The notes under the pieces were generated by a model, which was given only the letters and a program-made list of their open reading frames with translations, did no database searches and had not been told where the DNA came from. A DNA stretch of 64,000 nucleotides from NCBI RefSeq assembly GCF_916618955.1, contig NZ_OU745390.1, forward strand, positions 868,001 through 932,000, read 5' to 3'. A program made the position numbers and the translations under genes. Of the stretch, positions 39,868 through 51,897 are shown in pieces. This stretch comes from Pseudomonas sp. Marseille-Q3773. GTDB lineage: Bacteria > Pseudomonadota > Gammaproteobacteria > Pseudomonadales > Pseudomonadaceae. The number at the start of each line of letters is the position of its first letter. The first letter of the stretch is position 1.

Positions 39868-39999
39868 GCCGGGGTGGCAGCCCGTCCGTTGACGATCTTC
39901 CAGCTGTGCTGAGGCGGAGGGCAGCCAGGTATTAAATATCTAGCCGCCGGCTTGCCTGGCAACTGCTTAGGCTCGGGTCTTCATCCAACGGAGACACGC

Positions 40000-42900
40000 A
40001 TGATGCCTGGCAGCCCCGACCAACCGCTACACTCACCCATGACCGCAGAGCAGGCCTTCCAGGACGCAATCATCGCGGAGCGCTTGCCGGGCTGGCTGGG
40101 TTCGGCCACCCCGGCGCAAGTGCAGGCGCTGTCGCAGGCCATGACCCTGAGCCTGTACTTCCGCCAGCGCGTCAGTGCAGTGCTGGGGCAGATCCAGGGC
40201 ATCGACCGGTTTGCCAGGCCCTTGCTGCAAGCGGCGTTGGACCTGCCCGCGACGATCGACCTCGGGACCTTGCAGTTTCGCCAGGGCCGCCGTGAGCCGG
40301 TGATCAACTATCAGCCTGTGGGCAGCCACCTGACCACGGTGGTCTATGAACAGATCCCCTTGCTTGAAGCCGCATTGCGCAATTTCACGGCTGACCAGGC
40401 GGTGGAGGGCGGGCAACCCATCGGTAATGGCCTGCTGGGGGCGGCAGAGGGGCACACCTTGCCAACGGCCTGCGATTTCGCGGCGCTGTGTCGCGGCCTC
40501 GACCTGGGTGGGCAATATCAGGCTCACCTGAGGTCGATCCTGCTGGCACCTGCAAGCGATGACGCGACGCCAAAGGTAGAGTCGCTGATTGCCCGGGCGC
40601 AGCGCTATGCGATGCTGGTCGATGCGCATGTCGCCTGGATCAGCGGCCACGTCAGCGAAGCGGAGCACCAGCTACTGGTGGACTTCTGCGGGTTGTACAC
40701 GCCCTTGCAGCTTGACGGGCGACCGGTGCAGGCCAAGCGTCTGAAGCTGCTGGGTACTTGGCTTGAACAGGTCGTCGTGCTCGACGTGCGCGATGAAACC
40801 TTCAGCCCGCTTTACAGCAGCACGGCGCGGGTTCTGGTGCATATTCCGGGTGACCCGCAGGGCGCCTGGCGGGCATTCCCTGACTTGCGGCATTTCGCCA
40901 ATGCCTTGGGCAAGCGCTTGCGAACCCCGCAGTACCAGCGCTTTTTCAGCCGCTTCGTACGCCGGCGCGACAGCCAGACGTTCTTCGCTGCGGTGATTGC
41001 CGGCTACCAGGGTGTTTCCGACCTTGCCAACATCAGCCTCGGGGAACACATGCAAGCCCTCCCTCCGCCAGTGTTCGAGGCCTTGGCCCAGGCGCGCATC
41101 GAGCAACTGATGGATGACGCCGCGATGATCGCGGTGCCGACCCGCAACGTCGATGCCGAGCTACAGAAGGCTCATGACCAGCGCTTGGCTGCCGAAGGCT
41201 GGGCCCTGCTCAACCTGGCGGCATTGTTTGTACCGGTGATCGGTGTCGGCCTGTTGGCGGTGACGGCGTGGGAACTGCTGGGAGAAGTGTTCCATGGCAT
41301 CGAGGCCTGGCACGATGGCGATACCAGCGAAGCGCTGGACCACGTACTGAATGTAGCCAGCGACGTGGCAGTAATGGCCGCGACGGTGGCGGGTGCCAGC
41401 GCGATGCGCGGCCTGTGGAACAGGTCGGCAATCGTCGACAGCCTGGTCCCGGTGCGGCTCGAGGATGGCACCAGGCGTTTGTGGCTGCCGGCCCTCGCAC
41501 CGTTCCGTAGCGTGCTGCCGGCGCAGGCGAGCGCAGGCGACAGCGAGGGTATCCAGCGACTCGGCGAGCAAGCCTGGGTGGAAATGGACGGCCATCATTA
41601 CGCGGTCGTCGCGGACCGGCTACCGGGGCAGTGGCGCCTGCGGACACAGGCCGGCCATGCACCGCGCCTGCAGCACAACGGCGCCGGTGCCTGGCGGCTG
41701 TGGTGCGAACAGCCCGCGCAGTGGGACGGCCAAGGTTATCTGCTACGCCGCCTGGGGGGCGAATTTGCCAGGCTCGATGACGAGCAGGTGGAGCTGTTCA
41801 TGGCGACCCATGCCCTCGACAGTGCACAACTTCGCGGCCTGCATGTGCATGGCCATGCCCCCGGGGCAGGCATGCGCGACAGCGCCATGCGCTTCAACCT
41901 TGACCGGCGCATCCGCCAGGTGGTGAGCCAACTGCGCGGTGGTGTGCAGGTCATCGATGCTGCCGTGCTGGAACATGCCCGCAGGCTGCCGGGCGCGGCG
42001 GGGCTCACTGACCAGGCGCTGGCCGAGCTTGCCTGGGCACAGCGACGGGCGTTGTTCGAGCGCGTGTATGTCGCAGAACAGGGCAGCCAAGGGCAGGATA
42101 TCGCGACCTTGCGCCGCTTGTTCCCGGGGCTGCATGACCGGCAGGCTGCCGCCTTGCTGCGTGATGCGCGGCCGGCTGACCGGCAACGGCTGCTCGACAC
42201 CGGGCGGGTGTCGCTGAGCCTCGCCGCCGCTGCCCGGGAAGCCGCGCTGGAAGCACGGGTGGTACGGGTATACGAAGGGCTTTTTCTGGACACGCCACAG
42301 GGGGCCGACCTGGCGAGGGCCGTGCTGGGCTTGAGCGAGCAACTGCCAGGGCTGGCCAGCGGCGTTCGCTGGCGGTTGTTCGAAGGGGCGCTCGACGGGC
42401 CAAGGCTGGCGGGCAGCGAGCAATGCGAGGGTTGTTTCGACCTGGTCCATCTGCACGGGCAGTTCCAGCTACACGGCGCGCATGGCGTGCTCGGAGAGCC
42501 GGGTGAACTGTTTGCGGTGATTGCTGCTGCGTACGATGAAAGCCAGCAGGCCGCATTGGGCGTGGGTGACCCCTTCGCCCACAACCTGCGCGTGCTGGTC
42601 GGGCGCCAGGCCCTGCAGCAACGCGCGCTGATACGCCGTCTGTTGGGCCACGCCGAACCGGCCGGCTGGTTCCGGCCACCCCGGCGGTTGCCGGACGGGC
42701 GCATTGGCTACCCGCTGAGCGGACGCGGCGATGGTGCCGGGCGGCGGGCCAGGCCGCAGGGGGTGTTCGCCTCGTTGCGTGCCATCTACCCTTCGTACAC
42801 CGACGCGCAGGTGCTGGCCTGGGTCAACGACGCACAGCAGGCCGGGCGCCGCCCCGAGGACGAACTGGCCAGCCTCATGCGTGAACTGGAAACGCTGCAG

Positions 42901-44526
42901 ACGCATCTGCACGCCTGGGTACACATGGGCACGAGTACGTTGGAACGCGGAGAACGCAGCTACCTGCGCGATACGCTGGTCAATTGCTGGCAACGCAGCG
43001 CTGTGCGCACGGCCGGGGTGGACGGCCTGCCCTCGGGGTATCGCCTGAGCCTGTGGGCAGTGACCCTGCAAAGGTTGCCGGAGTTGCCGGAACAGGTCAG
43101 CTTCGGCCACGTGCACGAGCTGTCGATGATGGGCCTGGGGCTACGCGAAGTCTCCCCGGGGTTCTTGCGTGCTTTCCCCCGCTTGCAAGTGCTGGAACTC
43201 TCCGGCAACGAGCTGACCCGGGTTCCGGCAGACCTGCAGCGCCTGGCGCATTTGCGCGAGCTGGACCTGTTCGGCAACAACATTGTGCTGGATACCGCGC
43301 AGGCCATGACGCTTGCCAACTGCGAGGCGCTGGAATACGTCAATCTCTCGTACAACCCACTGGGCCGCACCTTCCCACTGTACCGCCTCGATCGCCTTGC
43401 CCGGCTGCACTTGCGCAACACGGGCATCAGCGAATTCCCTCCGGCGCTGCTGGACCGCCTGGAACTGGTAATCGCCGACCTGCGCGGCAACCAGATCACC
43501 GAATTGCCGCAGCGCTTCTATCGCTCACCGTCGGTCAGCAGCTACGTGTTGCTCGACGGTAACCCGCTGACTGCCGAAGCTGCCCAGCGGCTGCAGGTGT
43601 TCAGGCAGGCGCATGCCATCCCCCTTGAACAGGAGGTGATCGCCCCGGCTGCATCGGTCCGCCTGCGTTGGCTGGATGCTGCCGATAGTGCTTTGCGACC
43701 TGAACAGTCTTCCGCCTGGGATGAACTGATGACTGAGCCCGGTGCTGCGGATTTCTTCAACCTGCTGCGCAGGTTGCAGGAAACCGCGGATTTCCGAACG
43801 CATCGCCAGGCCTTGGCGAACCGGGTGTTCGACATGCTGATTGCCATGCGTGACTACAGTTCGCTGCGCGAAGAACTGTTCAGGCGCGCGACCGATACAC
43901 TCACGTGCCAGGATAGCGTCACGTTGTGCTTCAGCAACCTGGAACTGCATATGCTGGTCTGGCGAGCACGGGTGGATGCTGCAGGGGGGAATCAAGAGGC
44001 CGCATTGCTGCAGCTGGGGCGGCGTCTGTGGCGCCTGGACGAGGTGGACCGCATTGCCCTCGAGGACATCCAGGCGAGGCGGGCCGATGGCGCAGACCCG
44101 GACGAAATCGAAGTGGGGCTTGCCTATCGTATTGGCCTGCGCGACAGCCTGGACTTGCCGGCGCAGCCGGGCGACATGCTGTTCGCCGAGGTTGGCGGCG
44201 TGACTGCGCAGCGCCTGGAACAGGCGCGGGCGCGGGTAGAGGAGGCCGAAACCACGGAGCACCTTGCCGCATCGCTGGTGGCCCGTGAATTCTGGGAAGA
44301 GCATTTGCTCAGGAACCATGCCGAGCGCCTGGAGGCGTTCAATGCGCCTTACCAGGAGCGCTCCAACCGGTTGATGGAGGCTGCCGAAAGCATGCCGGAA
44401 GCCGAGTACATGGCCCAATACGCGACCTTGCAACGCGAGCGTGATGAAGCACGCCATGCACTGCTGTTGACGCTTACCCGGGAGGCCCTGGAGGCCGATC
44501 CAGCGTCGCGCTCGGCAGGGCAATGA
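40000..44526 (+). CDS. LRR-NEL effector-type protein (putative E3 ubiquitin ligase)
   Basis: 1508 residues, soluble overall, no signal peptide. The N-terminal part is of the DUF6543 (dermonecrotic-toxin-like) kind: AERLPGWLGSATPAQVQALS, then a long helical body. Hydrophobic helices lie near residues 404-430 and 455-472. Leucine-rich repeats span about 1041-1198 (LRELDLFGNNIVL; LEYVNLSYNPL; YVLLDGNPLTAEAAQ). A C-terminal NEL domain follows, with the Cys-x-Asp site TLTCQDSVTL (Cys1303). NEL proteins such as IpaH/SspH are E3 ubiquitin ligases injected into host cells. CGGAG lies 6 bases before the ATG. No type III secretion gene is near, so the delivery route is unknown. It is alone, between polB and a DUF4174 gene. 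Confidence 0.85.
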   Translation: MMPGSPDQPLHSPMTAEQAFQDAIIAERLPGWLGSATPAQVQALSQAMTLSLYFRQRVSAVLGQIQGIDRFARPLLQAALDLPATIDLGTLQFRQGRREPVINYQPVGSHLTTVVYEQIPLLEAALRNFTADQAVEGGQPIGNGLLGAAEGHTLPTACDFAALCRGLDLGGQYQAHLRSILLAPASDDATPKVESLIARAQRYAMLVDAHVAWISGHVSEAEHQLLVDFCGLYTPLQLDGRPVQAKRLKLLGTWLEQVVVLDVRDETFSPLYSSTARVLVHIPGDPQGAWRAFPDLRHFANALGKRLRTPQYQRFFSRFVRRRDSQTFFAAVIAGYQGVSDLANISLGEHMQALPPPVFEALAQARIEQLMDDAAMIAVPTRNVDAELQKAHDQRLAAEGWALLNLAALFVPVIGVGLLAVTAWELLGEVFHGIEAWHDGDTSEALDHVLNVASDVAVMAATVAGASAMRGLWNRSAIVDSLVPVRLEDGTRRLWLPALAPFRSVLPAQASAGDSEGIQRLGEQAWVEMDGHHYAVVADRLPGQWRLRTQAGHAPRLQHNGAGAWRLWCEQPAQWDGQGYLLRRLGGEFARLDDEQVELFMATHALDSAQLRGLHVHGHAPGAGMRDSAMRFNLDRRIRQVVSQLRGGVQVIDAAVLEHARRLPGAAGLTDQALAELAWAQRRALFERVYVAEQGSQGQDIATLRRLFPGLHDRQAAALLRDARPADRQRLLDTGRVSLSLAAAAREAALEARVVRVYEGLFLDTPQGADLARAVLGLSEQLPGLASGVRWRLFEGALDGPRLAGSEQCEGCFDLVHLHGQFQLHGAHGVLGEPGELFAVIAAAYDESQQAALGVGDPFAHNLRVLVGRQALQQRALIRRLLGHAEPAGWFRPPRRLPDGRIGYPLSGRGDGAGRRARPQGVFASLRAIYPSYTDAQVLAWVNDAQQAGRRPEDELASLMRELETLQTHLHAWVHMGTSTLERGERSYLRDTLVNCWQRSAVRTAGVDGLPSGYRLSLWAVTLQRLPELPEQVSFGHVHELSMMGLGLREVSPGFLRAFPRLQVLELSGNELTRVPADLQRLAHLRELDLFGNNIVLDTAQAMTLANCEALEYVNLSYNPLGRTFPLYRLDRLARLHLRNTGISEFPPALLDRLELVIADLRGNQITELPQRFYRSPSVSSYVLLDGNPLTAEAAQRLQVFRQAHAIPLEQEVIAPAASVRLRWLDAADSALRPEQSSAWDELMTEPGAADFFNLLRRLQETADFRTHRQALANRVFDMLIAMRDYSSLREELFRRATDTLTCQDSVTLCFSNLELHMLVWRARVDAAGGNQEAALLQLGRRLWRLDEVDRIALEDIQARRADGADPDEIEVGLAYRIGLRDSLDLPAQPGDMLFAEVGGVTAQRLEQARARVEEAETTEHLAASLVAREFWEEHLLRNHAERLEAFNAPYQERSNRLMEAAESMPEAEYMAQYATLQRERDEARHALLLTLTREALEADPASRSAGQ

Positions 44527-44707: not shown

Positions 44708-45259
44708 ATGCTCGTTCGGTCACTGACCCTCGCCACCTTGCTTGCTGTTGCCGGTCCGCTTTTCGCCGCAGACAGCGATGCGCCATTGGCCAAGGAACTG
44801 GGCAAGGCCAGGCCATTGGTGGTTATCGCCCCGAGCAGCGCCGACCCGACCTTGCGCGGGTTGAACGAGGCGTTGAAAGACCCGGCCACCCAGGCAGCGT
44901 TCAAGGAACGCGGCCTGGTGCTGTACAGCGTCGCCAGCATGATGGGCAAGCGTGAGGACAAGAACCTCGAACAGCAGACCACCATGGCCCTTATTCGGGA
45001 ACTTAAACTCGGCGCGAGCAAGGGTACCAAGGTGATCCTGGTGGGCAAGGACGGCGAGCGGCATGTGCTCAAGGACGACGACAGCGGCGAGGCTATCGAC
45101 CCACAGACGATCTTCAAGGCGGTCGATGAGCTGCCCGCCAGCGAAAAAGCGCTCACGGCGCCCGAGCCTGTAGCCGCAGCGCCGGAAACCAAGGCCAAGG
45201 ACAGCAAGCCGGCCAAGCCAGCCAAACCGACCGCTCCGCCCAAGCCGCTGGAAGACTGA
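44708..45259 (+). CDS. DUF4174 periplasmic protein
   Basis: 183 residues. A signal peptide (LVRSLTLATLLAVAGPLFAA) is followed by a compact thioredoxin-like DUF4174 domain (KARPLVVIAPSSADPTLRGL, FKERGLVLYSVASMMGK, TKVILVGKDGERHVLKDD) without Cys. The C-terminal tail is a disordered Lys/Pro/Ala run (about residues 150-183). DUF4174 proteins are periplasmic and of unknown function. AAGGAG lies 6 bases before the ATG. A strong terminator follows, so it is transcribed apart from the RiPP operon just downstream. Confidence 0.8.
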   Translation: MLVRSLTLATLLAVAGPLFAADSDAPLAKELGKARPLVVIAPSSADPTLRGLNEALKDPATQAAFKERGLVLYSVASMMGKREDKNLEQQTTMALIRELKLGASKGTKVILVGKDGERHVLKDDDSGEAIDPQTIFKAVDELPASEKALTAPEPVAAAPETKAKDSKPAKPAKPTAPPKPLED

Positions 45260-45303: not shown

Positions 45304-45318
45304 TGTATCTGACTGTAT
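45304..45318 (+). promoter_or_regulatory. Direct repeat TGTAT-N5-TGTAT upstream of hvfA
   Basis: TGTAT-CTGAC-TGTAT followed immediately by ATGGCC, 111 bases before the hvfA start. The same arrangement, including ATGGCC, is at 50946-50966 between the two-component genes and DUF2790. Repeats one helical turn apart are what OmpR-family regulators bind, so this is the likely response-regulator site. Confidence 0.55.
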
Positions 45319-45334
45319 ATGGCCACGCTGCTGA

Positions 45335-45355
45335 GCGGTTTTCATACAAAACCGC
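45335..45355 (+). promoter_or_regulatory. Dyad in the hvfA promoter or leader
   Basis: GCGGTTTT-CATAC-AAAACCGC, perfect 8-base arms with a 5-base centre, 16 bases downstream of the direct repeat and 74 bases before hvfA. It may be an operator or a 5' hairpin in the mRNA. Confidence 0.45.
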
Positions 45356-45429
45356 GCCCCCCGCGATACATCCCCGACAAACCGCAACGGCCTAATGGCT
45401 CCACATCCCAACCACAGTGGAGCATCACC

Positions 45430-45921
45430 ATGACACATGTACGAAGCACGCTCGGCCTGCTTGGCGCCGCCCTGATCGGCAGCATGGCCCTTGGCAGCAG
45501 CGCATTCGCTGTCGAACCCCTGGCCCAGGGTTACCAGCTGGCTTCGGCCAAGGTGGCCGGCGAAGGCAAATGTGGTGAGGGCAAGTGCGGGGCCAGCGCC
45601 AAGGCCACCCAGGGCGAAGGCAAGTGCGGTGAAGGCAAGTGTGGCGCCAGTGCCAAGGCCGGCGCCGAGGGCAAATGTGGCGAAGGCAAGTGCGGCGATG
45701 CGTCGTTCGCCAGAACCGACACCAACCACGACGGCAAGGTGTCGCGTGACGAGTTCGTTGCAGTGGCCAAGGACCGCGCCGGCGACTTCGACAAGATCGA
45801 CCGCAACCACGATGGCTACATTTCCGAACAGGAAGCTGCCGACCATCTCAAGGCGATCTACCAAGCCAATGGCAAGCGCATGCCCGAAGGGCTGTTCAGC
45901 CACCTGAGCGGCAAGCCCTGA
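45430..45921 (+). CDS. hvfA: MNIO-RiPP precursor (HvfA/bufferin type) fused to EF-hand domain
   Basis: 163 residues. The signal peptide (about 1-27) ends GSSAFA-VEP. Three tandem EGKCGEGKCG blocks (residues 45-54, 63-72, 80-89; Cys48, 53, 66, 71, 83, 88) are the modification motif of HvfA-type precursors, in which MNIO enzymes turn Cys into oxazolone-thioamide groups that bind copper. Residues 97-108 and 124-135 are two canonical EF-hand loops (DTNHDGKVSRDE; DRNHDGYISEQE), which predict calcium binding. The product would act in the periplasm as a metal-binding ribosomal peptide. GGAG lies 8 bases before the ATG. The enzyme and partner genes follow. Modification itself is inferred. Confidence 0.85.
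   Translation: MTHVRSTLGLLGAALIGSMALGSSAFAVEPLAQGYQLASAKVAGEGKCGEGKCGASAKATQGEGKCGEGKCGASAKAGAEGKCGEGKCGDASFARTDTNHDGKVSRDEFVAVAKDRAGDFDKIDRNHDGYISEQEAADHLKAIYQANGKRMPEGLFSHLSGKP
45562..45696 (+). repeat. Tandem coding repeats of the precursor core
   Basis: Three degenerate copies encode the EGKCGEGKCG blocks; starts are spaced 54 and then 51 bases. Copies 1 and 2 extend into a shared GASAKA linker. Third-base differences between copies (AAA/AAG, TGT/TGC) show they have diverged while the peptide stayed constant. Confidence 0.8.
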
Positions 45922-45996: not shown

Positions 45997-46845
45997 ATGC
46001 ACCCAACGCATTTACCCGCCGCCCCCCTGCAAGCGGGGCTTGGCCTGCGCCGCGGCCTGATGTCGGAACTGCTGGCCCTGGAGGCCGGCGTGGTGGACTT
46101 TCTCGAATGCGCCCCGGAAAACTGGATTGCCGTGGGCGGTGCCTACGGCAAGGGGCTGGCGCAACTGGCCGAACGTTTTGCCATTGCCTGCCACGGCTTG
46201 TCGTTGTCGCTGGGCGGCAGCGCACCGCTGGACCTGCGGTTCCTCGAGCAGACACGGCGCTTTCTCGAGCGCCACCAGGTGCAGCTATACAGCGAACACC
46301 TGAGCTACTGCAGCGACGACGGCCACCTGTACGACCTGATGCCCCTGCCATTTACCGATGAAGCCGTGCGCCATGTGGCCGCACGTATCCGCCAGGTCCA
46401 GGAGCATCTGGGGCGGCGGATAGCCGTGGAAAACATCAGCTACTATGCCGCGCCTTACCAGGCCATGAGTGAGCTCGACTTCATCCGGGCGGTGCTCGAC
46501 GAGGCTGATTGCGACCTGCTGCTGGACGTCAACAACGTGTTCGTCAATGCCTGCAACCACGGTTACCAGGCCCAGGCATTTATTGCAGGCCTGCCCAAGG
46601 CCCGGGTGGTCGGCATGCACATAGCCGGCCACTACGACGAAGCGCTCGACCTCAAGGTCGACACCCATGGCGCTGCGGTAAAGGAAGAGGTGTGGGCGCT
46701 GTACGCAGTTGCCTGCGCGCGCTTTGGCGTGCAACCGACGGTGCTCGAACGCGACTTCAACTACCCGCCGCTCACTGAACTGCTGGCCGAGACGGCGCGC
46801 ATTCGCCAGGTGCAGCACGCCGCGGGAGGGCACGCTAATGGATGA
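45997..46845 (+). CDS. hvfB: MNIO (DUF692) enzyme HvfB/BufB
   Basis: 282 residues, TIM-barrel type multinuclear non-heme iron oxidase. Metal ligands characteristic of DUF692 are readable: [47 protein letters not shown] and LERDFNYP. These enzymes use a mixed-valent iron cluster and oxygen to modify Cys in precursor peptides. The ATG at 45997 has GGAG eight bases upstream; a GTG at 45976 is less likely because it sits in the hairpin. The 3' end overlaps hvfC by 8 bases. Confidence 0.92.
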
Positions 46846-47536
46846 GACCTTGCGACAGCAGCAATATACCCTGGCCCGCCACCTGCGCGACCCGCAGCGC
46901 CATGCACCACCGGCTGGCGTGGAGGCACGGCGGCTCAGGGTGTACCGGGAGTTGTTCTACGGCGCCATCGAAGGCTTGCTGGCCGGCAGCTTTCCGGTCA
47001 TGCGCCAGGCGCTGGGGGAGCAGCGCTGGCATGCTCGGGTACATGATTTCTACGCCAACTACCGTAGTCAGACGCCACTGTTCACCGAAATAGCCGGGGC
47101 GTTCGTCGACTACCTGCAGGGCGTGCAGCCGGATGCCCCCTGGCAACTGGAGCTGGCGCACTACGAGTGGATCGAGGCGCAGCTGTACCTGAGCGATGCC
47201 GAGGACCCGCCGCATGACCCGAGGGGCAATCTGCTGGAAGGGGAGCCGCTGTTGTCTTGCGTGGCGCGGGTATTGGCCTATCGGTGGCCGGTAGAGCGGA
47301 TCGGGGCGGATTACCAGCCGCAGGCTGCACCTGCGACAGCGACCTTGTTGCTGGTTTATCGCGATGCCGGATTGCAGGTGCGCTTCGCTCGCCTGACGCC
47401 GCTGGCGTACCGGTTGCTGGCGCTGGAGCAGGGCACCGGGCGGGCGCGGCTGGAGGCGTTGGACGCCGATGTGATGCAAGGGTTGGCATTGCTGGAGGAG
47501 CTGCGCGAGCAGGGCATCATCATCGGTACGGTTTGA
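46838..47536 (+). CDS. hvfC: RiPP recognition/partner protein HvfC/BufC (DUF2063)
   Basis: 232 residues. The N-terminal DUF2063 part ([59 protein letters not shown]) is the usual partner of MNIO enzymes. It binds the precursor leader and docks it to HvfB. A C-terminal winged-helix-like part ends [15 protein letters not shown]. The start overlaps hvfB (GGGAGGG site 7 bases upstream), so the two proteins are made together. A bidirectional terminator follows. Confidence 0.88.
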
Positions 47537-47574: not shown

Positions 47575-48063
47575 CTACTTGCAGCACCGCACCCTGAACC
47601 AATGGTCCAGGCTCAAGCGCCCAGCCCCCTTGAGCAACAGCGGCAGCAGCGCCACAAGGTAGATCAGCGGCAGTTTGAAGTTGCCGAAGCCCTGGTCGGT
47701 AATGACGTAGCCCTGGGCCAGCTCGGCCAGGCTCGACCAGTGTGCCGGCCAATGCACCGCGACGATCGCCACCACGGTCACCACCATCAGCCCTGCTGCT
47801 GCCAGCCGGGTCCCCAAACCCAGCAACAGCAGCAACGGCAGGATAAGCTCTGCCCACATCGACAGCTGCCAGTTCAACTCCGCCGGCAGCAGGTTGAAGG
47901 GGAACGGGAAACTGCCTTGCAAGTCAGCGAACCAGTTGCTGCCATTGAGCTTCTCCCTGCCGGACTCGAAAAACTCCCAGGCCAGGAACAGCCGCAGCGG
48001 CAGGTCGGCGCTCCAGGTGCCAAAACGGTCAAAGGTACTCAGGGTACGCGTCAGCGTGCTCAT
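47575..48063 (-). CDS. DoxX-family membrane protein
   Basis: 162 residues and four hydrophobic helices. The DoxX stretch [20 protein letters not shown] and the loop [20 protein letters not shown] are typical. DoxX proteins often accompany HvfA/BufA operons and are thought to take part in membrane redox or quinone chemistry. The C-terminus carries a Cys pair (RVRCCK). It faces hvfC tail-to-tail and is downstream of a ferric-reductase-like gene with a 12-base gap. Confidence 0.85.
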
Positions 48064-48075
48064 GTAGTTCTCTCC

Positions 48076-48693
48076 TCAGAAATAGGCGCGGGCGTTACGG
48101 CGTTGCTGGCGAGCCAGCTTGCCGGTGAGTTTCATGGCGATGGCGCTGCACATCAGGGCGAACGCCAGCGGGTACCAGCCTCCCATGGGGATGCGTTTGT
48201 AGAACGACAGGCAGAACACTGCCGCCAGTACCCACATGCCGGTGCTGTGCAGGGCCCGCCAGGCACGGCCACCCAGCAGGCGCATGGGGGCCTTGAATGA
48301 AGTGACGGTGAGCAGCAGCAGGAACAGGTAGCCGAGGGTGCCAGGCAGGCTGGACGTGAGCGTGCGGTTGGCCCAGAACAGTTCGGGGAACTGTTGCGCA
48401 TAGCGGTAGATCAGCATGCCATGCACGGTGTGGGAAAAGGCGAATGCCAGCCCCAGGTAGCGCCGTTCCTGAAGGATGCGGCGGCTAGGGGTGCCTGGCA
48501 GCAAGGTCACCAGGGAAGAGGCGAGGAACGCCAGCAGGAACAGCGCGAACGAACTGCGCGCGGTGGCGCGGATGGCGCTGCGCAGGCCGTCGGGGTCAGG
48601 TTGGCTGGCCAGGACCACGGCGGTCATCGCCAGGGTCAGGCCGGCGAGGACAGCGAACAGCTTCCAGCCGGAGGGTAGAGTCAGGGGTTTCAT
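48076..48693 (-). CDS. Ferric-reductase-like heme membrane protein
   Basis: 205 residues and about six membrane helices. His residues placed for heme binding are in FSHTVHGMLIYRY and RALHSTGMW, as in the ferric reductase transmembrane (FRD/MsrQ-like) family. No flavin domain is attached, so it would need a partner for electrons. It was probably recruited for periplasmic metal or thiol redox chemistry (inference). The ATG at 48693 has GGGAG seven bases upstream. It is in an operon with doxX. Confidence 0.75.
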   Translation of the reverse strand: MKPLTLPSGWKLFAVLAGLTLAMTAVVLASQPDPDGLRSAIRATARSSFALFLLAFLASSLVTLLPGTPSRRILQERRYLGLAFAFSHTVHGMLIYRYAQQFPELFWANRTLTSSLPGTLGYLFLLLLTVTSFKAPMRLLGGRAWRALHSTGMWVLAAVFCLSFYKRIPMGGWYPLAFALMCSAIAMKLTGKLARQQRRNARAYF

Positions 48694-48773
48694 CAGGAGG
48701 CTCCCGCAATATGGTGGTGAACGGGAGTGTGTTGGAGCGGGGTATCTGCAGTGTGTCGGCGGAAGTTGCGTTG

Positions 48774-48788
48774 TGTATCTGTTTGTAG
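48774..48788 (+). promoter_or_regulatory. Variant TGTAT direct repeat upstream of the ferric-reductase-like gene
   Basis: TGTAT-CTGTT-TGTAG, with the same 5-base spacing as the repeats at 45304 and 50946. It lacks ATGGCC and points away from the gene it would control (start 48693), so support is weaker. Confidence 0.3.
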
Positions 48789-48852: not shown

Positions 48853-50139
48853 TCATTGCAGTTCGATCTGCGCGCACAACCCGCCGCTTGTGCGGTTGCT
48901 CAGTGTCAGCCGGCCGCCCATCGCCTGGATCAACTGGTGGGCAATCGCCAGCCCCAGTCCGGTACCGCCGGTGCTACGGTTGCGCGAACCCTCCACGCGG
49001 TAGAACGGCTTGAGCACTTCATCCAGCTCGCCAGCGGGTATTCCCGGCCCGTTGTCGAGTACGCGGATGACTGTCGTGTCGCCCTCCCGGGCTATTTCCA
49101 GCACGGCGGCCCCGGCAAACTTGAGGGCGTTGTCCACCAGGTTCACCAGCACGCGGCGCAGGGCATGTGGCCGGGTTTGCAGCAGGCTGCCGCTGCTGCC
49201 GCAGCGCTCGACCTGGGCACCGCTGTCCTGATAGTCGAACACCAGGCTGTCGAGGAAGGCATCAAGGTTGATGCGGCACGGGGCCTCGGTACTGGTGTCC
49301 ATGCTGCGGGCATAGGCCACGCCTTCGCGCACCAGGTGTTCCATTTCGCCCAGGTCATTCCACAGCTTGTCCTTTTCCAGCCCGTCGTCCATCACCTCGA
49401 CCCGCAGTTTCATGCGCGTGATCGGTGTTTGCAGGTCATGCGATATTGCCGCCAGCAACTGCATGCGTTCTTTCAGGTAGGCGGCGATCCGCGCCTGCAG
49501 GGCGTTGAAGGCCACCGCGGCGTAGCGCACTTCGCGAGGGCCGCTTTCGTCCAGTTGCACACCGGGCTTGTCCGGGTCGAGGTTGTCCACCGCTTGGGCC
49601 AGGCGGGTCAGCGGACCGATTGCCAGGCGCACGGCCAGCCAGGTACACAGCAACAGCACGGCCAACTGGATCAGCAACACCACCGGTAGCCAGCGGGCTA
49701 CCGGCACCGGTGCCGGGGTCACGTCGATGGTCAGCGGCGCACCGTCGGCCAGGCTCAGGTGCGCCTGGAAGTGTACGTTCGTGCCGGGTATTTCCTGAAA
49801 GGTCAGGCGGTAGTCGCTGCCGATAGCCTTGACGATCGAATCGGCGGCCATGGGTGGGTCGCTGCTGGGCATCGCTTCGCCCGCCAGGCCCTGGTCCAGA
49901 CGGTAGCGATAGGTGCGCCGCTCCAGGCGCGGCAACCAGGCGGCGCGTTCGGCTGCGGGCAGGCGATCGAGGATGGCTACCGAGGTGGCCACGTCCTGTT
50001 CCAGGGTGCTGAGCATCATCGAGCGGCTGCTGATATAGCGTTCGTAGGCCTGCAGGCCGAATGACAGGCCATAGGCCAGGACCAGGCCGGTGAAGAAGAT
50101 CAGCGCCAGGCGCGAGGCGAGGGTGCGTGGCCACTTCAT
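48853..50139 (-). CDS. Two-component sensor histidine kinase
   Basis: 428 residues. TM1 is about 8-30, a ~115-residue periplasmic loop follows, TM2 is about 150-172, then HAMP. The dimerisation helix has phospho-His234 (AAISHDLQTPITRMKLRV). The ATPase domain shows LVNLVDNALKFA (N box), VLDNGPGIP (G1) and STGGTGLGLAIA (G2). The periplasmic domain has no Cys or His cluster that names a ligand. It overlaps the response-regulator gene by 4 bases. Position next to the hvf, doxX and ferric-reductase genes suggests a metal or redox signal, but this is inference. Confidence 0.92.
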   Translation of the reverse strand: MKWPRTLASRLALIFFTGLVLAYGLSFGLQAYERYISSRSMMLSTLEQDVATSVAILDRLPAAERAAWLPRLERRTYRYRLDQGLAGEAMPSSDPPMAADSIVKAIGSDYRLTFQEIPGTNVHFQAHLSLADGAPLTIDVTPAPVPVARWLPVVLLIQLAVLLLCTWLAVRLAIGPLTRLAQAVDNLDPDKPGVQLDESGPREVRYAAVAFNALQARIAAYLKERMQLLAAISHDLQTPITRMKLRVEVMDDGLEKDKLWNDLGEMEHLVREGVAYARSMDTSTEAPCRINLDAFLDSLVFDYQDSGAQVERCGSSGSLLQTRPHALRRVLVNLVDNALKFAGAAVLEIAREGDTTVIRVLDNGPGIPAGELDEVLKPFYRVEGSRNRSTGGTGLGLAIAHQLIQAMGGRLTLSNRTSGGLCAQIELQ

Positions 50140-50876
50140 GACGGCGACTCGAGCAGTTGTACCGGCAGCGAGAATACATAGCCCTCGCTGCGCACGGTCT
50201 TGATGCAGCTGGGTTCGCGCGCGTCGTCGCCCAGGCGCTGGCGCAGGCGGCTGACCAGCAGGTCGATGGAACGGTCGAAAATGTCGGCCTCGCGGCCCTG
50301 GGTCAGGTTGAGCAGCTGCTCACGGCTGAGCACCCGCTGCGGGTGGTCGAGAAACACCCGCAACAGGCGGTATTCGGCGCCGCTCAGGGCCACCAGGGTG
50401 CCTTCGCTGTCGAGCAGGTGGCGCGCGGTAGTGTCCAGGCGCCATTGGCCGAAGCCCAGCAGCCGGCTGCTTTCGCTGATGGTCAGGTTGGGCGGCAGCA
50501 TGCGTGTTCGGCGCAGCACGGCATTGATGCGTGCGAGCAGCTCGCGGGCAGAGAACGGCTTGGTCAGGTAATCGTCGGCACCCATTTCCAGGCCGATGAT
50601 GCGGTCGGTCTCGTCGTTACGCGCGGTCAGCATCAGCACCGGGGTGTTGCGATGTTTGCCGGCGCGCAGCTCGCGGCACAGCAACAGGCCGTCGTCACCG
50701 GGCATCATGATGTCGAGCACGATCAGGTCGACACTGTTGGCTTCGAGAAAGGCGCGCATCTGCCGGCCATCGGCAACGATGCTGGTGCGCAGGCCGTTCT
50801 TCTTCAGGTAGTTGCCGACCAGCTCGCGAATTTCGCGGTCGTCGTCGACGATCAGGATGTGATCGACGTGTTCCAT
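50136..50876 (-). CDS. OmpR-family response regulator
   Basis: 246 residues. The receiver domain has the acidic pocket (ILIVDDDREI), phospho-Asp55 in LIVLDIMMPG, the LTARN Thr and DYLTKPFSARELLARI with the conserved Lys. The C-terminal winged helix is OmpR-type (LSGAEYRLLRVFLDHPQRVL and DIFDRSIDLLVSRLRQRLGD). It is first in an operon with the kinase. A TGTAT direct repeat 70 bases upstream of its start is the probable autoregulatory site. ATG at 50876 has AGGAA eight bases upstream. Confidence 0.93.
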   Translation of the reverse strand: MEHVDHILIVDDDREIRELVGNYLKKNGLRTSIVADGRQMRAFLEANSVDLIVLDIMMPGDDGLLLCRELRAGKHRNTPVLMLTARNDETDRIIGLEMGADDYLTKPFSARELLARINAVLRRTRMLPPNLTISESSRLLGFGQWRLDTTARHLLDSEGTLVALSGAEYRLLRVFLDHPQRVLSREQLLNLTQGREADIFDRSIDLLVSRLRQRLGDDAREPSCIKTVRSEGYVFSLPVQLLESPS

Positions 50877-51095: not shown

Positions 51096-51371
51096 ATGAC
51101 CTTCAAGACCTTCGCCAGCGCCAGCCTGTTCGCCGTGCTCAGCTTCGGTACCCTGGCCGCCCACGCTGCCAGCGCACCGATGGACGACGCTGCCGTGATG
51201 CAGTACCGCTACGGCGACCACCTGGATGTCCAGAAAGTGTTATCGGTGCAGGACGACCAGAGCAACGCCTGCGGCCTGGTGAACACCCGCATGGACTACC
51301 TCGATTCCAAGGGCCAGCGGCAGAGCGTGCAATACCGTACTTATGCCACCGGCGGTTGCCATGAGAATTGA
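51096..51371 (+). CDS. DUF2790 small periplasmic protein
   Basis: 91 residues. A signal peptide (FASASLFAVLSFGTLAAHAA) is followed by the DUF2790 pattern: MQYRYGDHLDVQKVLSVQDD, then Cys59 (NACGLVNTRMDYLDSKG) and a terminal Cys in TYATGGCHEN. The two Cys could form a disulfide. The family is common in Pseudomonas, its function is unsettled and it is often linked to metal-responsive two-component systems. AGGAG lies 7 bases before the ATG. The end overlaps the thioredoxin-like gene by 11 bases. Confidence 0.87.
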   Translation: MTFKTFASASLFAVLSFGTLAAHAASAPMDDAAVMQYRYGDHLDVQKVLSVQDDQSNACGLVNTRMDYLDSKGQRQSVQYRTYATGGCHEN

Positions 51372-51897
51372 TCGCCGCTTGCTGCTCAAGGTGGGCGGTA
51401 TCGCCCTGGCCCTGGCCGGCCTTGGCCTGGCCGGGCACCTGAAGGCCCGTGACAGCTACGGCGCCATGCCGTCGTTGTCGGGCGCCAGCCAGTGGCTCAA
51501 TTCAGCGCCGCTGGATGCACCCGTGCTCAAGGGCAAGGTAGTGCTGGTGGATTTCTGGACCTGGGACTGCAGCAACTGCCAGCGCAGCCTGCCGCATGTG
51601 AACGGGTGGGCACGGCGCTATGCCGACCAGGGCCTGGTGGTGGTCGGGGTACATACGCCGGAATATGACTACGAGCACGATGTCGGCACCTTGCGTGACA
51701 AGGTGGCTCGGCTGGGGATCGGTTACCCGGTGGCGGTGGATAATGACTACAAGGTGTGGAATGCCTGGGGCAACCAGTTCTGGCCGGCGCATTACTTCGT
51801 CGACCGCAAGGGCCAGGTGCGCCATGTACATTTTGGCGAGGGCGATTATGCCGGGCAGGAGCAGGTGATACAGGCGTTGCTGGATGAGAAGGAGTAA
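51361..51897 (+). CDS. TlpA/redoxin-like membrane-anchored thioredoxin-fold protein
   Basis: 178 residues. An N-terminal membrane anchor (LLLKVGGIALALAGLGLAG) follows a basic start. The periplasmic thioredoxin fold has the redox site C70-SN-C73 in FWTWDCSNCQRSLPHV, and VVGVHTPEYDYE plus GNQFWPAHYFVDRKG with the cis-Pro. It resembles the DipZ-C-terminal/YfmJ-like group. It would reduce or oxidise periplasmic thiols. It is translationally coupled to the DUF2790 gene, whose two Cys make it a possible substrate (inference). Confidence 0.85.
   Translation: MRIDRRLLLKVGGIALALAGLGLAGHLKARDSYGAMPSLSGASQWLNSAPLDAPVLKGKVVLVDFWTWDCSNCQRSLPHVNGWARRYADQGLVVVGVHTPEYDYEHDVGTLRDKVARLGIGYPVAVDNDYKVWNAWGNQFWPAHYFVDRKGQVRHVHFGEGDYAGQEQVIQALLDEKE

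Follow-up and report, generated by a model that had tools for sequence, protein, structure and literature searches.

A probable Pseudomonas putida-group counterpart of EfhP with six EGKCG motifs and an EF-hand pair, and its co-occurrence with HvfB in the genus

The window, the whole 64,000-nucleotide stretch of DNA that was analysed, belongs to contig NZ_OU745390.1 of Pseudomonas sp. Marseille-Q3773, and the features of its precursor locus are listed in Table 1. The hvfB and hvfC genes are encoded on the strand of the precursor, and hvfX and the ferric-reductase-like gene are convergent to them. The products of hvfB and hvfC represent a cognate MNIO and its RRE partner, with scores above the NF003818 and NF050145 cut-offs. 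The response regulator matched 49 PDB sequences, one of which, not the best, is named BfmR (5hm6). Beside the locus, a 1524-aa ORF (39952-44523, +) contains ToxA_N (dermonecrotic toxin N-terminal), LRR, and C-terminal NEL E3-ligase domains, and its product appears to be a large effector- or toxin-like protein. A DUF2790 protein (51096-51368, +) and a thioredoxin-like (AhpC-TSA/Redoxin) protein (51364-51894, +) are encoded adjacent to the two-component genes.

Table 1. Features of the precursor locus, with positions given in the window.
Feature	Position	Strand	Basis
DUF4174 protein	44708..45259	+	PF13778; described as a neighbour of P. putida-type efhP loci in PMC4053335
Divergent BfmR-like box pair TGTATC ... 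GATACA, precursor promoter	45304..45370	.	6-mer and box-pair searches
EfhP-type chimaera, 163 aa (signal peptide, six EGKCG, EF-hand pair)	45430..45921	+	Translation, Pfam, NCBIfam NF050137
Predicted Sec signal peptide, residues 1-27, cleavage likely after ALGSSAFA	45430..45510	+	Read from the sequence by eye
LxxGY motif, residues 31-35, directly behind the signal peptide; candidate HvfC recognition element	45520..45534	+	
Three EGKCGEGKCG blocks, residues 45-89; six predicted 5-thiooxazole sites	45562..45696	+	NF050137; chemistry as reported in PMC12668002, PMC13419390
EF-hand pair, residues 88-146	45691..45867	+	AlphaFold2 model, Pfam, PDB sequence matches to EF-hand proteins
EF-hand loop 1 DTNHDGKVSRDE, residues 97-108	45718..45753	+	Translation, chimaera alignment
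EF-hand loop 2 DRNHDGYISEQE, residues 124-135	45799..45834	+	Translation, chimaera alignment
hvfB, MNIO maturase	45997..46845	+	PF05114; NF003818, 416.7 bits (cut-off 360)
hvfC, DUF2063/RRE partner	46838..47536	+	PF09836; NF050145, 254.5 bits (cut-off 142)
hvfX, DoxX family	47575..48063	-	PF07681; NF050144 above cut-off
Ferric-reductase-like membrane protein, in PA4103 position	48076..48693	-	PF01794
GATACACAAC, fits the non-canonical BfmR motif GATACAnnAC	48770..48779	-	Motif published for the PA4103 promoter (PMC4148453)
Sensor kinase, BfmS-like by position	48853..50139	-	Pfam; gene order compared with PMC4148453
OmpR-family response regulator, BfmR-like by position	50136..50876	-	Pfam

The precursor frame is translated into 163 amino acids and a stop. 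Six exact EGKCG motifs were found (Cys 48, 53, 66, 71, 83, and 88), arranged in EGKCGEGKCG blocks that begin at residues 45, 63, and 80, with spacings of 18 and 17. The HvfA-type repeat model NF050137 matched with an E value of 5.6e-20 (70.7 bits against a cut-off of 19.5), while the HvfA equivalog NF050188 reached 56.3 bits against a cut-off of 95, so the precursor is not classed as HvfA itself. Pfam EF-hand_1 was detected with an E value of 8.9e-11, and PF13202 (EF-hand_5) with 41.2 bits in two stretches behind the EGKCG domain. By these E values, the EF-hand and HvfA-type repeat matches are not due to chance. The AlphaFold2 model has a mean pLDDT of 61.0 and a pTM of 0.43. The EF-hand pair is modelled with helices 88-96, 106-112, 114-123, and 133-146, the 10-residue blocks from 91 to 150 averaging pLDDT 84-94, and residues 17-88 have pLDDT below 50, so that the EGKCG arm is predicted to be disordered, in line with the unstructured EGKCG domain described for such precursors. 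In its own genome, NF050137-type repeat matches were confined to the precursor gene, and a single HvfB match was found. The precursor is thus a real, well-formed gene of a described kind. The sequence-only reading had already recognized the six motifs in three blocks, the two EF-hand loops, a signal peptide (the N-terminus is indeed signal-peptide-like), and the enzyme and partner genes directly downstream, all of which are borne out by the translation and the Pfam and NCBIfam matches; its proposal that one exported protein combines two metal-binding modules is judged right.

The precursor is most probably the P. putida-group counterpart of EfhP (PA4107), a RiPP precursor of the HvfA/oxazolin type whose C-terminal part is an EF-hand pair and whose gene would belong to a BfmR-type regulon. 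This putative orthology is deduced from the order of the genes, the spacing of the loops, and the box in the promoter. The gene order fits PA4107-4106-4105, PA4103-4104, and bfmRS as given in PMC4053335 and PMC4148453: an operon with DUF692 and DUF2063 genes lies close to two-component genes, the latter named BfmS and BfmR by position only. The loops are 27 residues apart, equal to those reported for EfhP (88-99 and 115-126). EfhP is described as operonic with DUF692 and DUF2063 genes (PMC4053335), and BfmR is reported to bind the PA4107 and PA4103 promoters (PMC4148453, PMC8025907). EfhP differs in having four reported EGKCG repeats (PMC11559002) against six here, and in the DUF4174 gene, which adjoins this precursor as in three P. 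putida strains and P. entomophila and marks group II of the efhP loci in PMC4053335.

The fusion itself, presented in the sequence-only reading as a departure from the usual MNIO precursor, has already been described in the EfhP literature and in the MNIO survey of 2025, which places EF-hand chimaeras among EGKCG precursors and cites EfhP; novelty of the fusion was therefore rejected. The Buf_EGKC|EF-hand_5 chimaeras of that survey share with the precursor a predicted N-terminal export segment, a short, predicted-unstructured EGKCG domain, two EF-hand_5 domains, and clustering with MNIO, DUF2063, and DoxX genes; a few of the EGKCG clusters also include ferric-reductase genes. They are described as lacking 17-residue repeats; this precursor has three blocks spaced 18 and 17, a possible difference. 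HvfA/oxazolin of Haemophilus influenzae is similar in its three EGKCGEGKCG blocks, signal peptide, and HvfB, HvfC, and HvfX-type partners; it differs in that the sections of the literature considered here mention no EF-hand for HvfA, and in the NF050188 score of the precursor given above. Fontiphorin and other captophorins (PMC12668002) likewise combine EGKCG repeats with an MNIO and a PME1/DUF2063 partner. The word EF-hand is absent from the main texts of PMC12668002, PMC13419390, and PMC12636315, and the words DUF692 and PA4106 from those of the EfhP papers of 2022 and 2024. The present analysis joins these two research lines, EfhP as a Ca2+ sensor (2022 and 2024 papers) and the EGKCG/MNIO precursors (2025 survey).

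The published BfmR motif has GATACA as its core (PMC4148453). The 10-mer GATACAnnAC ahead of the ferric-reductase gene is the single match against 1.65 expected by chance in the 64-kb window and was rejected as proof, being within chance expectation. The precursor promoter contains only one-mismatch copies (GATACAAACC and GATACATCCC) of the GATACAnnGC/AC motif; such matches number 46 in the window against 38.5 expected, and 8 of 100 shuffles reach 46. The pair TGTATC-N52..58-GATACA occurs at one place in the 5.56-Mb genome, with none for the reversed-pattern control. It was rejected as a specific marker, being present in 171 of 298 genomes of the genus, some of them without the precursor (approximately 106/134 with and 64/164 without it; reversed-pattern control approximately 0.35 and 0.29 per genome, respectively).

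Upstream stretches were collected for 104 chimaeras, defined by a minimum of one KCG and one strict loop, and 72 remained after removal of redundancy; at least one start was misplaced by the start choice (L146), so some box distances are off. GATACA/TGTATC ranked first of all 6-mers upstream of the chimaeras (59/72, against 9.1% of random windows in the same loci), and GATACA was found upstream of 57 of 441 other frames of these loci, some of which perhaps belong to the same regulon. The divergent pair preceded 52 of 72 chimaeras and 23 of 441 other frames. Between the two boxes, many promoters carry CATACAAA or a TTACAAA element, and TACAAA ranks second among the 6-mers. The GATACA box was present in 23 of 24 chimaeras without hvfB in the DNA examined (20/21 in a strict count, as three have less than 1500 bases downstream: 1488, 1488, and 188) and in 36 of 48 linked ones. 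The 12 linked chimaeras without the box come from loci titled Lysobacter (3), Steroidobacter, Vulcaniibacterium, Luteimonas (2), Pseudoxanthomonas (3), a proteobacterial MAG, and a Xanthomonadaceae MAG. The support for a putative BfmR regulon comes from the conserved GATACA core across loci and remains at the level of sequence.

To estimate co-occurrence with the modifying enzyme, 298 genomes of the genus were searched with the precursor (P0001) and HvfB. A precursor match was found in 134 genomes and HvfB above the cut-off in 131; both were present in 131 of 298, the precursor only in three (G011, G182, and G232), HvfB only in none, and neither in 164. HvfB thus accompanies 131 of 134 genomes with a P0001 match and 0 of 164 without, a contrast for which a Fisher value overstates independence because the genomes are related. 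Among the three HvfB-less genomes, the precursor frame looks broken in one (L150, G011), the loop-2 glycine is lost in another (L149, G232), and the third precursor (L142) looks intact; a broken copy was also found in an HvfB-bearing genome (L151, G046). P0001 contains both parts, and the EGKCG part can be enough for a match: of the 134 genomes, 113 have a place reaching the EF-hand part, and 21 have an EGKCG-part place only. Of the 144 listed places, 48 extend into the EF-hand part and have hvfB no more than 3.5 kb away, 72 (65 genomes) extend into it with no hvfB within this distance, and the other 24, each near hvfB, are restricted to the EGKCG part.

Hence, in about half of the surveyed relatives carrying the chimaera, its gene lies apart from the modifying enzymes, with the regulatory boxes kept. 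HvfB is encoded elsewhere in 62 of the 65 genomes with an unlinked EF-hand precursor. Of these 65, 20 are assembled as one contig, and HvfB is encoded in 19 of those; in the multi-contig ones, a few linked cases may be concealed at the ends of contigs (e.g., contig 16 of G114). For closer analysis, 20 of the 72 unlinked EF-hand places, hand-picked to include the three HvfB-less genomes, and 20 of the 61 hvfB places that have no precursor match close by were fetched. Eighteen hvfB stretches (two of them under 5 kb) showed no frame with at least two KCG, and one short frame of this kind was present in each of the other two (L128 and L129). A further short EGKCG frame is encoded at another site in some split genomes, where the chimaera need not be the sole candidate substrate. 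A regulator more than 70% identical to that of the window was found in the same stretch in 16 of 20 cases, and a box lay within 450 bp of hvfB in 20 of 20, against 14.9% of 1000 random windows. Because boxes occur upstream of both parts and GATACA is the BfmR core, the split chimaera and hvfB seem to stay in one regulon; no statement to this effect was seen in the literature passages returned by our searches. What is newly added here is modest, namely the near-perfect HvfB co-occurrence and the common box in split loci. The split arrangement with a common promoter box offers a route to finding unlinked MNIO substrates.

This co-occurrence bears on the reading of the protein as mainly a dual Ca2+/iron sensor, whose cysteines would sense iron and not serve as a copper buffer. 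Dual Ca2+ and Fe sensing has been proposed from the EGKCG cysteines, and EfhP is reported to affect iron-uptake genes (PMC11559002); the ferric-reductase-like gene of the locus would also fit. Nevertheless, the proposing paper calls the repeats not characterized, the Cys motifs are HvfB/HvfC substrates by family, the precursor occurs almost invariably with HvfB, and published EGKCG products bind copper, which makes an iron sensor possible but doubtful.

The distribution of the fusion was assessed by a pattern search of genome contigs, in which at least 594 stretches matched and at least 350 encode a relative; the patterns were derived from this precursor, so the sample leans towards it. The best 80 of these relatives gave 82 named precursor rows. 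In answer to the question of how common EGKCG-EF-hand fusions are, raised by the sequence-only reading, they proved widespread: 60 of the 82 rows (best 80 of at least 350) had at least two KCG and at least one strict EF-hand loop, 33 with hvfB nearby in the DNA examined and 27 without. Besides Pseudomonas, the titles of chimaera loci among the matches listed include Stenotrophomonas, Lysobacter, Luteimonas, Pseudoxanthomonas, Rheinheimera, and Steroidobacter. A record titled Pantoea sp. Cy-639 (L035), possibly a mislabelled Pseudomonas, contains hvfB and hvfC together with a chimaera of 77% identity. In Lysobacter prati (L078), two different EF-hand chimaera genes flank one hvfBC pair.

The same rows address the suggestion that the EF-hand acts as a follower domain needed for recognition by HvfB/HvfC. 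The presence of the EF-hand in one chain with the core, in a fusion of wide distribution, speaks for this; still, an obligatory role was rejected as unlikely, because 19 of the 22 rows without a strict loop (best 80 of at least 350) have hvfB nearby, one of the 19 being a spurious antisense frame (L083), and 3 do not. Moreover, LxxGY follows the signal peptide directly in both kinds of precursors (87/89 EF-hand rows and 19/22 EF-less rows, against 51/1772 random 60-aa stretches), the EF-less misses being a Haemophilus haemolyticus row, the L083 frame, and the broken L093. Modification in vitro was also reported for a short peptide carrying two EGKCG repeats (PMC12668002). A follower role is therefore improbable. 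LxxGY itself may be the element read by HvfC, against which stand its absence from the Haemophilus haemolyticus row and the report that FonBC tolerated single alanine changes ahead of the core (PMC12668002).

Calcium ligands were compared in 71 aligned chimaeras (the 72 non-redundant ones minus the second L078 copy). D1 and E12 were present in 71/71 in both loops, D5 in 71/71 in loop 1 and 70/71 in loop 2 (N in the remaining one), and position 3 was always D or N, a conservation partly inflated by construction, as the chimaeras were chosen for at least one strict loop. The loops were kept while the KCG number varied from 2 to 7. For EfhP produced in E. coli from efhP without the signal peptide, a Ca2+ Kd of 13.7 µM was reported, together with a change in shape and hydrophobicity on Ca2+ binding; mutation of loop residues abolished both, and ITC suggested about one site, not two (PMC9132961). 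Given such measurements and near-invariant ligands, a neutral passenger EF-hand without calcium function is highly improbable, even though loops can decay, as in L149 and L150 and in the 4 of 71 chimaeras that lack the loop-1 glycine.

As to the chemistry, the oxazolone/thioamide formation on Cys expected in the sequence-only reading was rejected, since the literature now assigns the EGKCG modification as 5-thiooxazole (PMC12668002, PMC13419390); for a different EGKCG precursor, the reported mass change is -4 Da per motif (PMC12636315). If cleavage occurs after residue 27, the mature protein (residues 28-163) has a calculated average mass of 14021.3 Da, from which six thiooxazoles would subtract about 24 Da; oxazolin is reported to absorb near 305 nm (PMC12668002). 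No paper showing modification or copper binding of an EF-hand chimaera was found by the literature searches, within the portions of the papers considered.

Returning to an EGKCG precursor that is modified, exported, and copper-binding, as we infer, the following sequence of steps can be proposed. The two-component system would switch on efhP-hvfB-hvfC and the ferric-reductase/DoxX operon, in accordance with the boxes seen here and the regulation known in P. aeruginosa. In the cytoplasm, HvfB and HvfC would turn up to six EGKCG cysteines into 5-thiooxazoles, a chemistry shown on EF-less EGKCG peptides. Sec would export the product, with the signal peptide cut. In the periplasm, the flexible EGKCG arm would bind a soft metal, most likely Cu(I), while the EF-hand pair would bind Ca2+, for which the ligands are present and binding was measured by others on E. 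coli-made EfhP, and would serve as a folded, Ca-responsive carrier for the arm. On the other side, one study observed weak protection against copper by an EGKCG product, and its authors hesitate over that role (PMC12538549); EfhP has also been linked with calcium and iron (PMC11559002). Should EfhP prove to be modified in the cell, the phenotypes described for both metals would have to be studied again with the modified, metal-loaded protein.

Tentatively, EfhP could be a thiooxazole metallophore with a calcium-gated fold, modified in many species in trans by a distant hvfBC under a common BfmR-type box. The cytoplasm is poor in free Ca2+. There the protein would stay apo and flexible for HvfBC modification and Sec export, and Ca2+ would fold it in the periplasm, so that it is retained there and the presentation of the metal-binding arm is set. 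Such a role of calcium in folding after export is offered as a conjecture. If true, it would answer the problem, raised in PMC12452194, of keeping a signal-peptide precursor for modification ahead of export.

One further relative (L136, contig 22 of G203) contains a tandem pair of near-identical chimaera genes, separated by about 1.6 kb and both encoding four KCG and two loops.
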